Below the pieces are notes generated by a model. That model was not told where the DNA came from. It saw only the letters and a list, made by a program, of their open reading frames with translations, and made no database searches. Below are positions 43,823-46,981 of a stretch of DNA of 64,000 nt, piece after piece. Origin of the DNA: Lysobacter changpingensis. GTDB lineage: Bacteria > Pseudomonadota > Gammaproteobacteria > Xanthomonadales > Xanthomonadaceae. Position 1 is the stretch's first letter, and each line of letters begins with the position of its first letter. The translations under genes and the position numbers were made by a program. The stretch lies in the NCBI RefSeq assembly GCF_017308985.1, contig NZ_JADWPE010000002.1:310001-374000 (forward strand), written 5' to 3'.

Positions 43823-45211
43823 CTAGGCATCCAGCACAAGCCCAGGCCGCGCCAGCACCGCCTGCACGCCGAAGCTTTCGCCGATCTCGCCGGCCAGCGC
43901 CTCGCGTGCGCGATCCTCGCCGTGCACCAGCGCGAGGGGTGGATGCGCGGCGCCATCGCTGCCGCCGATCCCGCCGTACCACGCCATCAGGCCGCGCTGG
44001 TCGGTATGCGCCGACAGGCCGCCCACGGTGTGGCGCTGCGCGTTCACGCGCACGTCGTGGCCGTGGATGCGCACCCACTTCGCACCGTCGACCAGGCGCC
44101 GCCCGAGCGTGCCTTCGGCCTGGTAGCCGACGAACACCACGTGCGTCTGCTTCCGGTCCAGCCGGTGACGGAAGTGGTGCAGGATGCGCCCCGCATTCGC
44201 CATGCCCGAGCCGGCGATCACTATCGCGCCGCGTTCGATGCGGTTGATCGCCATCGATTCCTCGCGCGTCTGCGTGAAATGCAGGTTCGGCAGGCGGAAC
44301 GGATTGGGCTTGTCGCGCCAGACCCGTTGCGCGTCCTCGTCGAACAGGTCGGCGTGGCGGTCGTAGATCGACACCACTTTCGCCGCCATCGGGCTGTCGA
44401 GGAAGATGCGCCAGCGCGACAGGTGCCATTCGTCCCAATGCCGCGCGAACCAGTACAGCAGTTCCTGGCTGCGGCCCACCGCGAAGGCGGGAATCAGCAC
44501 GTTGCCGCCGCCGCGCCATGCGGCATCGAGAATCTCGCCGAGTTCGCGGATCGTCTCGGCGCGATCGCGATGCAGGCGGTCGCCGTACGTGGATTCCATC
44601 ATCACCAGGTCGGCGCGGTCGATGCTGGCCGGATCGCGCAGGATCGGCGTCCCCTTCGGCCCGAGGTCGCCCGAGAACACCAGCTTTCGGTCATCGGCCC
44701 ACAGCTCCACGCTGGACGAACCCAGGATGTGGCCCGCTTCGCGGAACGCGATCTCCACGCCCGGCAGGATCGCCGTGCGCGTGTCGTAGGGCAGCGGACG
44801 CACGAGGTCGAGCGCCGCCGCCACGTCCTCGCGCGTGAACAGCGGCTGCGCCTCGGGCTCGCCCGCGCGGCGGTAGCGGTTGTGGCGTTCGGCATCGCTT
44901 TCCGAGATCGACGCGGCATCCATCAGCATCACCGGCATCAGGTCGGCGGTGGCCTGCTGCGCATAGATCGGCGAACGGAATCCGCGTCGGACCAGCAGCG
45001 GCACGCGGCCGATGTGGTCGATGTGCGCGTGGCTGACGACGAGCGCGTCGAGCGATGCGGGCTCGAACGGGAACGGATCGGTGTTGCGGCGTTCGGCTTC
45101 CGGACTGCCCTGGATCATCCCGCAATCGAGCAGCACGCGACGACCCGCCGCCTCGACTTCATGCAGGGAACCGGTGACTTCGCCGGCCGCACCGTGGAAA
45201 TGGACGCGCAT
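43823..45211 (-). CDS. Metallo-beta-lactamase/beta-CASP RNA nuclease
   Basis: Bacterial Ysh1/CPSF-73-like beta-CASP protein of 462 residues; the family processes RNA with endo- or exonuclease activity. The metal-binding motif 2 is SHAHIDHIG (H61, H63, D65, H66), with GAAGEVTGS (motif 1), EAGHILGSSSV (motif 3), FSGDLG (motif 4), then the beta-CASP part with MMESTYGDRLH, IPAFAVGRSQELLY, AGSGMANAGRI (motif B) and GGLSAHTDQ (motif C). The start is ATG 45211. It is convergent with the antiporter gene. Physiological RNA targets are unknown. Confidence 0.92.
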   Translation of the reverse strand: MRVHFHGAAGEVTGSLHEVEAAGRRVLLDCGMIQGSPEAERRNTDPFPFEPASLDALVVSHAHIDHIGRVPLLVRRGFRSPIYAQQATADLMPVMLMDAASISESDAERHNRYRRAGEPEAQPLFTREDVAAALDLVRPLPYDTRTAILPGVEIAFREAGHILGSSSVELWADDRKLVFSGDLGPKGTPILRDPASIDRADLVMMESTYGDRLHRDRAETIRELGEILDAAWRGGGNVLIPAFAVGRSQELLYWFARHWDEWHLSRWRIFLDSPMAAKVVSIYDRHADLFDEDAQRVWRDKPNPFRLPNLHFTQTREESMAINRIERGAIVIAGSGMANAGRILHHFRHRLDRKQTHVVFVGYQAEGTLGRRLVDGAKWVRIHGHDVRVNAQRHTVGGLSAHTDQRGLMAWYGGIGGSDGAAHPPLALVHGEDRAREALAGEIGESFGVQAVLARPGLVLDA

Positions 45212-45365: not shown

Positions 45366-45671
45366 TTACCGCGGCGGAACGACGCGCTCCTCGCGCACCA
45401 CCGTGCCATCCGGGCGCACGTCGCGATAGACGACGCTTTCGCCCGCGCGGCCGTAATCGCGCGGCGTGTCGCGCCATGCGGCGAGCAGGTCGACGTTCTG
45501 CTTCTCGATGACTTCCAGGCTGCGCGCGATGCGTCGCAGCAGACCCTTGATGCCGAACACCGCGAACGGCACCAGGATCCACAGGATCGACAGGATCAGG
45601 CCGAAGGCGAAGATGCAGAACCACAGGAACGTATTGGCGCCATAGGCGGCATTGGCGACGGTGCTGTCCAT
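45366..45671 (-). CDS. Small membrane protein of unknown function (101 aa)
   Basis: Unrecognised 101-residue protein. One long hydrophobic segment (about 13-46: NTFLWFCIFAFGLILSILWI and onwards) could form one or two helices, followed by a basic amphipathic helix GLLRRIARSLEVIEKQN and a polar C-terminus SVVYRDVRPDGTVVREERVV. It resembles small inner-membrane stress proteins only in architecture. It starts with ATG 45671 and lies downstream of the ROK-type gene on the same strand, about 90 bp away. Confidence 0.75.
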   Translation of the reverse strand: MDSTVANAAYGANTFLWFCIFAFGLILSILWILVPFAVFGIKGLLRRIARSLEVIEKQNVDLLAAWRDTPRDYGRAGESVVYRDVRPDGTVVREERVVPPR

Positions 45672-45761
45672 CGTGCGCTCCGAGTTGGATGACGACGGAA
45701 GTCTTGGCGAGCCGGCGTGATTCCGATGTGGAGTTTCGCGTGATACGCGCGTGACGGCGCG

Positions 45762-46838
45762 TCATCCGCCCAGGTTGGTGAAACTTGCGTTGCCCAGGCC
45801 GGTGCCGATCGTGAGCACGCCCCACCGCTCCGCGTTGCGCATGCGCGGGCGTTCGCTCAAACCCTGCACGACCGCATCGTTGTGCATCGCCACCGTGATC
45901 GCGCGCCCCGCAACGCGATCGAGCCGCCTGGCCAGTTCGTCCGGCAGGTGGAATGGCGCCTCCCAGTCGCCCGGCAGGTTCTGCGCGCCCTGCGGGATGC
46001 TGCCGTCCGCCTCGATCAGCCCCGGACACGCGATGCCGACGAACGGCGCCAGCCGCAGCCCGAGCGTGCGCGAGAACGCCGACAGTCCGTTGAGCATCGC
46101 CGACAGGCGCGCGATCGCTTCGCCGCGTTCGGGGTCGTCCTCGGCGTGGCGCCACTGCATGCTTTCGATCACGCGCGCCTTCGCGCCGTCGTCGGACGCA
46201 TCCCGGCGCGGCTCGACGATGCCGCAGCGGATGTTCGTGCCGCCGACATCCACCGCGAGGAACGCATCGAAACGGCGGAAACGCGCCGGCAGCAGCTGCG
46301 TCCAGCCGATCAGGCCGGCTTCGTCGGGATCGTGGCTGATCACGTGCAGCTCCACGCCGCTGCGCGCGCTCCGCAGCATGCGCTGCGCGCGACGGATCGC
46401 GAGCTGGCCGAACTGGCTTTCCGGAAGGCCGCCGCCGAGCACGATGCGCTTCACGTCCTGCCACGACGGCTGCGCTCGGAAGCACTGCACGACGTGCACG
46501 AGCCTGCGCGAGAACTCCTCCACTGCAAGGTGCGTCACGTGCGAGGCGTCGGCGTCGCCTCCCACCAGCACCAGGTCGATGTCCTTCTTCGACAGCTCGT
46601 CGCTGCGTGCGCGGCCGAACGGATCCTTGCCGGTCGCGTGCACCTTGCGCACGGTGTCGAGCACCTGCCGGAACGCGGTCTGGCTCGCGCGATCGCCGAG
46701 GAACCCCTCGCCGTCGGGATCGGGAATCGCGAGGTTGTAGCTGTCGATCGTCAGGCCCGTGATGCGCGAAACGCCGTGCGGGCCGCTCGTGTTCGTGCGG
46801 CGGGATGCTGGGCGTTTTCGAGCGGATTTGTCGGCCAT
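45762..46838 (-). CDS. ROK/ASKHA-type sugar kinase-like protein with apparently permuted motif order
   Basis: A 358-residue protein with ROK-family motifs in an unusual order. The phosphate-binding start of a ROK kinase, LAVDVGGTNIRCGIVE, is at about 194-209 rather than at the N-terminus. It is followed by GIACPGLIEADGSIPQG (268-284), the catalytic-region AMHNDAVVQGLSE (317-329), and TIGTGLGNASFTNL at 343-356, where the protein stops. The half that normally follows (adenosine motif IVIGGG... with flanking helices) seems to lie before it: VKRIVLGGGLPESQFGQLAI (129-148) and DEAGLIGWTQLLP. No ROK zinc Cys motif is visible. This looks like a circular permutation rather than a truncation, since no remaining lobe lies downstream. 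Start ATG 46838. Substrate unknown. Confidence 0.8.
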   Translation of the reverse strand: MADKSARKRPASRRTNTSGPHGVSRITGLTIDSYNLAIPDPDGEGFLGDRASQTAFRQVLDTVRKVHATGKDPFGRARSDELSKKDIDLVLVGGDADASHVTHLAVEEFSRRLVHVVQCFRAQPSWQDVKRIVLGGGLPESQFGQLAIRRAQRMLRSARSGVELHVISHDPDEAGLIGWTQLLPARFRRFDAFLAVDVGGTNIRCGIVEPRRDASDDGAKARVIESMQWRHAEDDPERGEAIARLSAMLNGLSAFSRTLGLRLAPFVGIACPGLIEADGSIPQGAQNLPGDWEAPFHLPDELARRLDRVAGRAITVAMHNDAVVQGLSERPRMRNAERWGVLTIGTGLGNASFTNLGG

Positions 46839-46886
46839 GCGCCATTTTCCGGCGCGCGACGGTTACGCCACGTCAAAGCAGACGCT

Positions 46887-46971
46887 TTGGTAGCCCGGGT
46901 AAGCACAGCGCACCCGGGGTGACGTGACGGAAGCGTTCCCCGGGTGCGGCTTCTCTTACCCGGGCTACCAA
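46887..46971. repeat. Dispersed palindromic element, copy 6
   Basis: Arms TTGGTAGCCCGGGTAAGCAC and the complement ending CGGGCTACCAA, with diverged centres. It lies between the ROK-type and thioredoxin genes. Confidence 0.85.
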
Positions 46972-46981
46972 GGCGGATTAT

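Follow-up and report, generated by a model that had tools for sequence, protein, structure and literature searches.

Proteins of the ROK family (PF00480), a branch of the ASKHA fold, share a fixed succession of motifs, which in a consensus of 30 ordinary members runs DxGGT, ND, GTGxG, ExGH, zinc motif, GGG and a last segment. The zinc motif, CxCGxxGC, is typical of the family without being universal, and repressors exist among ROK proteins. The ordinary order is also found in the polyphosphate-glucose phosphotransferases (NCBIfam model NF045942, solved structure 1woq) and in a group of short, zinc-less ROK-like proteins of about 240 amino acids, as well as in the Glucokinase (PF02685) and Hexokinase_1 (PF00349) families.

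The passages of the published accounts that bear on the question present circular permutation in other proteins or as a rule general to kinase fold groups, not in ROK or ASKHA proteins (PMC1079889, PMC2213659, PMC12667903). One of these, a permutation-search preprint, reports an RNase H-like pair, and its main text does not use the words ROK, kinase, hexokinase or actin (PMC12667903). Among the full-text literature matches listed, no permuted ROK or ASKHA protein appeared, and two ambiguous matches proved to have no bearing on it.

The window analyzed here, a stretch of 64,000 nucleotides from Lysobacter changpingensis, carries a gene whose product is homologous to PF00480 in both halves and retains DxGGT, an NLPG-like segment, ND, GTGxG, GGG and the last segment, but in which the family order of segments is swapped and both ExGH and CxCGxxGC are missing. 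As in natural circular permutants of other folds, complementary segments have changed places and a new junction lies between the old termini. The features of the gene are as follows, with conservation given for 102 aligned family rows, 99 of them distinct.

45762..46838, minus strand: whole coding sequence, 358 amino acids plus stop, ATG start (open reading frame list).
46776..46778, minus strand: H21, first invariant residue of the family, close after the new N-terminus (His in 102/102 rows).
46275..46778, minus strand: counterpart of the C-terminal portion of ROK proteins, residues 21-188, matching ROK 199-297 (Pfam, profile-profile comparison).
46683..46706, minus strand: GFLGDRAS, residues 45-52, near-invariant (F46 and G48 102/102; D49 101/102; A51 99/102; S52 100/102).
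46428..46445, minus strand: IVLGGG, residues 132-137, ADENOSINE motif (GGG in 102/102 rows; pairs with the ROK GGG in the profile-profile comparison).
46302..46316, minus strand: GLIGW, residues 175-179, equivalent of the last ROK segment, GVRGAA (L176 and G178 102/102; G175 98/102; profile-profile alignment).
46260..46289, minus strand: junction of the former C-terminus to the former N-terminus, residues 184-193 (profile-profile comparisons).
45765..46274, minus strand: counterpart of the N-terminal portion of ROK proteins, residues 189-358, ROK 2-140 (Pfam, profile-profile comparison, solved-structure matches).
46233..46250, minus strand: DVGGTN, residues 197-202, PHOSPHATE1 (D197, G199 and G200 102/102; T201 97/102, with Ser in 5/102).
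45969..45980, minus strand: NLPG, residues 287-290, presumably a sugar-side motif (N287, P289 and G290 102/102; L288 101/102).
45876..45884, minus strand: HND, residues 319-321 (102/102 rows), with D321 the presumed catalytic base, as in ROK enzymes.
45792..45806, minus strand: GTGLG, residues 345-349, PHOSPHATE2, nine residues from the new C-terminus (102/102 rows).

An earlier note on this DNA had placed DVGGTN from residue 197 and IVLGGGLPESQFG at residues 132-144, followed by EAGLIGW, and these positions are correct. It had also put GTGLG near the end of the protein, which holds, at residues 346-350, which is one residue too far along. The next listed minus-strand open reading frame (ORF) downstream begins at 45671, and 45672-45761 therefore cannot hold a missing lobe, in agreement with the note.

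The gene is under purifying selection. A relative in Lysobacter arvi, found in a scan of genome contigs, is 87% identical across residues 1-356, the two closest relatives give dN/dS values of about 0.17 and 0.20, and third codon positions hold most of the differences. An antisense ORF of 346 amino acids (45882-46922, plus strand) overlaps the gene; since the substitutions lie mostly at third positions of the minus-strand frame, this pattern suggests a GC-rich shadow.

Against Pfam ROK, the whole protein scored 28.8 bits in two stretches, above the curated cut-off of 22.9. The second half alone matched positions 2-139 (E 0.0014). The first half alone (residues 1-190) matched positions 179-291 of 294 (E 0.024), the C-terminal region that the earlier note had predicted for it, at 14.6 bits and thus below the cut-off. 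Eight of the 23 members of the first-half alignment matched the same model (best E 0.00015). In profile-profile comparison of family alignments of 23 rows with 21 ordinary ROK proteins, the first half matched ROK 199-297 (E 1.7e-5, hhalign probability 78%), reaching the last profile column (297), and the second half matched ROK 2-140 (E 8.5e-8); the ROK rows were trimmed to the Pfam match, and the true chain ends may lie slightly further out. Solved-structure matches of the second half (E 0.0005-0.1) comprised N-acetylmannosamine kinases, glucokinases, a ROK family protein, 1woq (E 0.0026), a beta-glucoside kinase and hexokinases. The Glucokinase and Hexokinase_1 families gave weak second-half matches in 14 and 13 of the 23 members, respectively, and the window protein's own matches to them were below the cut-offs.

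The similarity of the first half to ROK proteins is modest, and it bears on another proposal of the earlier note, that an unrelated N-terminal domain was fused to a truncated first ROK lobe. The sub-threshold Pfam score of the first half and its best solved-structure match, a nonsignificant E of 0.71, would fit such a fusion. Pfam, the profile-profile comparison and the gain on rotation described below all assign this half to the C-terminal part of ROK, however, and GGG, L176 and G178 are invariant in 102 rows. Other Pfam families were matched by at most 2 of the 23 members, the case in point being baeRF_family10. As the first half matches the C-terminal ROK region, and no normal-order relative with an additional lobe was seen among the relatives examined, we consider an unrelated domain very unlikely.

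To compare segment orders, the 102-row family alignment was rotated and each rotation was aligned with the 30 ordinary ROK proteins. In the native order, the comparison gave 51.4 bits for ROK 2-112 and a separate 40.3 bits for ROK 193-252. Rotations starting at residues 141, 153, 165, 177 and 189 each gave a single collinear match of 77-79 bits spanning ROK 2-252. Starts at 117, 129 and 201-261 gave 54-65 bits, and 60 column shuffles averaged 17.1 bits with a maximum of 30.2. The reference sample is not a broad one, since the 30 proteins were the top Pfam matches in 60 genomes and most belong to a single fructokinase-like type.

The two orders were told apart by this profile-profile scan only. 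Pfam scores of rotated sequences (29.2, 34.6 and 41.7 bits) were almost unchanged from those of the native ones (28.8, 34.2 and 41.8), presumably because HMMER adds the stretches together. The family's two-stretch Pfam pattern was reproduced by rotating an ordinary ROK protein at a comparable position. The permuted gene of the window went undetected when its genome was searched with PF00480 at E 0.001; this search returned two other loci, L106 on contig C6 and L107 on contig C1, with 30.2 and 23.0 bits over profile positions 57-292 and 127-293.

The earlier note had explained the gene by a circular permutation of the ASKHA fold with its two lobes exchanged. The permutation is supported, in that the halves match complementary ROK parts in swapped order; the cut lies immediately behind the GTGxG segment in the second lobe, rather than at the boundary of the two lobes. 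ROK 141-198, the stretch that falls at the cut and includes ExGH and the zinc motif, has no recognizable counterpart in the family. Its place is taken by residues 21-79, which are similar in length and without detectable similarity in the profile-profile comparison. ExGH was found in none of the 102 rows, as against 30 of 30 ordinary ROK proteins compared, and CxCGxxGC in none of 102 as against 27 of 30. GFLGDRAS corresponds approximately in position to the close of the ROK zinc segment and the helix after it. H21 does not align exactly with the ExGH His: in the alignment from the rotation scan it is offset by two residues toward the N-terminus, within a weak stretch. Across the 81 family ORFs examined first, the tail after GTGLG is 7 to 55 residues long, and at most 20 in 74 of them.

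Judged from its sequence, the gene very probably encodes a protein of the ROK branch of the ASKHA fold that has undergone natural circular permutation. Its chain would have been opened directly behind GTGxG in the second lobe, with about 10 residues now linking the old C-terminus to the old N-terminus. The simplest route may have been a tandem duplication followed by loss of the outer parts.

A different history, in which two separately inherited ROK/ASKHA half genes were fused in reverse order by domain shuffling, deserves consideration in view of the short zinc-less proteins (L149-L161). Like the window family, these have NDAxxQ and GTGxGxA-like features. The second half scored 83-87 bits against them in hhalign (3, then 13 sequences), compared with 51-56 bits against ordinary members of the ROK family. 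The first half, by contrast, matches those ordinary members and none of the short proteins, against which rotated alignments scored no higher (13 sequences, 85-86 bits). The halves favor different ROK sets and so might differ in origin. With its 3, then 13 sequences, the short set is limited in size and diversity, though, which may inflate its score; the two pieces are complementary and end at both ends of the ROK profile; and the matches listed for 396 genomes, with at most nine candidates scored in each, include no strong half standing alone. On balance, we regard a fusion of separate halves as improbable, if somewhat less so than an unrelated N-terminal domain.

The short proteins were also considered as the direct parent of the family. 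Only the second half matches them and the first half does not, so this parentage is not established. Among the short type (L147, L149-L161; about 240 amino acids), CxCGxxGC was found in 0 of 13 and E[L/I][A/G]H in 13 of 13, and the type co-occurs with the permuted gene in genomes G091, G139, G200, G217 and G289. The two best short proteins scored 110.6 and 104.5 bits against NF045942, below its cut-off of 250. This model was matched by most members of the second-half alignment (17 of 23, best E 1.5e-7); the window protein itself scored far below the cut-off, with 18.6 bits for the whole and 21.1 for the second half. NF045942/1woq and the short proteins are all of ordinary order and about 240 amino acids, unlike the window family.

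The scan of genome contigs yielded 429 relatives among 560 candidate stretches; 80 were kept, and all 80 are proteobacterial by their record titles. On plasmids, 206 records contained a match, mostly from Rhizobium and Sinorhizobium, and the annotated rows among the matches listed were mostly named "ROK family protein," with a few "hypothetical protein." The phage collection gave no match to the family. The full profile found matches in 22 of 398 genomes sampled from the phylum and in 16 of 149 sampled from the bacterial family, one of the latter with the gene in two pieces. Beyond the contig scan and the plasmid and phage collections, sampling covered one phylum.

The order GGG, DxGG[T/S], HND, GTGLG was found in 102 of 102 aligned rows, in which D197, G199, G200, N287, N320, D321, GTGLG and GGG are all kept. 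As for a misassembly, frameshift or wrong gene boundary, broken frames occur in a few relatives (L016, L021, G493), but no sign of one was found for the window's gene; against such an artifact stand the one order in every row, from many assemblies, the purifying selection and the 206 plasmid records with a match. We give such an artifact practically no weight. Because the order is kept in all 102 rows and the tails after GTGLG are short, chance, misassembly and a truncated gene are ruled out as the source of the swapped order.

In a tree of the 102 rows, gamma-, beta- and alphaproteobacterial sequences each formed a single clade; the permutation is therefore probably old. When the half profiles were searched separately in 396 genomes, 24 strong first-half matches were found, each directly before a strong second-half match; these pairs are largely the same proteins as the genome matches of the full profile. 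Other first-half matches amounted to two weak stretches. The second-half profile gave 19 further weak matches (E 3e-6 to 9e-5) in ORFs of 303-413 amino acids, a length usual for ordinary ROK proteins. No tandem-duplicated or ordinary-order intermediate was listed in this half-profile search of 396 genomes from one phylum with at most nine candidates scored per genome. One stretch of 28 residues, at G200:C151:167219-167302, resembles the start of the first half (E 7.7e-4); it lies about 3.6 kb from an intact permuted gene and is perhaps a remnant of a second copy.

All parts of the ATP site (DxGG[T/S], GTGxG, GGG and the catalytic Asp) are present in 102 of 102 rows. The permuted protein keeps PHOSPHATE1 (DxGGT), PHOSPHATE2 (GTGLG), the ADENOSINE motif (GGG) and the presumed catalytic Asp321, and it most likely moves phosphate from ATP, or possibly polyphosphate, to a hydroxyl of a sugar or sugar-like solute. 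Since the ATP site is complete, we read the protein as a phosphotransferase with D321 as the base, and its motifs point most likely to an ATP-dependent sugar kinase. Of the usual sugar site, the ExGH and zinc segments, which lie at the cut, are gone. They may have been replaced by conserved residues near the new N-terminus, H21 and GFxGDxAS, with H21 a candidate for the lost ExGH function. Our best guess for the substrate is a hexose or a sugar-like compatible solute.

A permuted ROK fold could instead serve as a nucleotide- or sugar-sensing regulator without kinase activity, which is compatible with the permutation itself. The absence of the ExGH and zinc motifs and the existence of repressors among ROK proteins lend this some credit. 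The invariance of D197, G199, G200, D321, GTGLG and GGG in 102 of 102 rows argues against it, as does a Pfam search of the whole window protein up to E 10, in which ROK and Glucokinase were the only families and no DNA-binding domain appeared. A regulator is thus unlikely, although less so than either fusion, and it is probable that the protein is both permuted and a kinase.

In some rhizobia and Variovorax, the permuted gene probably has a link to osmotic or general stress. Variovorax-type loci have a divergent neighbor cluster, found in 47 of 85 loci, and the one representative of it that was tested carried OpuAC and BPD_transp domains, indicative of glycine-betaine transport. The trehalose-phosphatase gene otsB was the divergent neighbor in four of the seven annotated plasmid records viewed (Rhizobium sp. 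Pop5, R. lentis, Shinella and one labeled Roseateles). In S. meliloti, where the gene of strain 1021 lies at pSymB 477080-478090 (minus strand), the divergent neighbor is the M42 peptidase of the NAGGN osmoprotectant system. Bradyrhizobium and Phyllobacterium plasmid records had other neighbors. No neighbor cluster was common to all lineages, and the 20 ORFs around the Rhodoplanes, Rhodovulum, Bradyrhizobium and Luteimonas loci and those of two metagenome-assembled genomes (MAGs) showed no common theme. Eight neighbor ORFs were searched for families, giving one osmotic family, two other families and five without any, with the reservation that many GC-rich ORFs among the neighbors may be shadows.

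The pattern GGAAC-N16..18-GTT, which we take to be the consensus of the EcfG-type general-stress promoter, was present upstream of the gene at 13 of 34 alphaproteobacterial loci, with 0.6 expected from windows of the same loci; the 13 include one S. meliloti site three times (L111, L142, L143), and the pattern had been narrowed after a first look. It was absent from the other 21 alphaproteobacterial loci and from all 79 other loci. The first, slightly wider pattern found the same 13 loci of 113 (1.5 expected from shuffles). Relaxed in a different way, the pattern matched at nine of the 34 alphaproteobacterial loci, where 0.8 are expected, and at two of the remaining 79, where 0.7 are expected. 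One of the 34 had a match to GGAAC-N16..18-GTT on the opposite strand. This promoter test is not applicable to the window's own lineage.

The sequences of the family are known, under the name ROK family protein, and their permuted order was found nowhere in the searched literature. Hundreds of proteobacterial relatives seem to share the swapped halves with the ATP-handling parts kept, which would amount to a natural circular permutation within a very large enzyme superfamily. In an enzyme whose two lobes close around ATP, such a permutation would mean that the ASKHA halves need not follow one another in a set order and that a break in the chain next to the active site is tolerated. With the zinc and ExGH motifs lost at the cut, the family lends itself to directly testing how permuted enzymes rebuild a sugar site. 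As the records listed say only ROK family protein or hypothetical protein, the substrate would likely be guessed wrongly from them, and the promoter and neighbor evidence provides a concrete starting place. The fullest reading is that these proteins form an entire ancient family of ROK kinases, circularly permuted and free of zinc, whose sugar site was rebuilt at the new termini and which serves osmotic and general stress in rhizobia, Variovorax and Lysobacteraceae, and that this would be the first natural circular permutation reported in ASKHA kinases as far as our searches show; we advance it tentatively, at somewhat under an even chance.

The window's own neighbors, like those of several other lineages, displayed no stress theme. 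Within 12 kb of the gene, matches to almost all of them were confined to the two nearest Lysobacter loci, the exception being ORFs near 41 kb, which were also matched in L019. Downstream on the same strand is a small ORF of 101 amino acids with a hydrophobic N-terminal part (45366-45671, minus strand), and beyond it an ORF that by eye resembles a metallo-beta-lactamase-fold hydrolase (43823-45211, minus strand); of 84 loci compared, the two nearest Lysobacter loci alone gave matches to them. Close upstream of the gene, at 46883-46975, is a 42-nucleotide imperfect inverted repeat, 74% complementary, that contains GTAGCCCGGGTAAGC(A)CAGCGCACCCGGG. With at most two mismatches, GTAGCCCGGGTAAGC(A)CAGCGCACCCGGG has 168 forward and 168 reverse matches in the genome, compared with none for a control, and the upstream repeat looks like a member of a REP-type repeat family.
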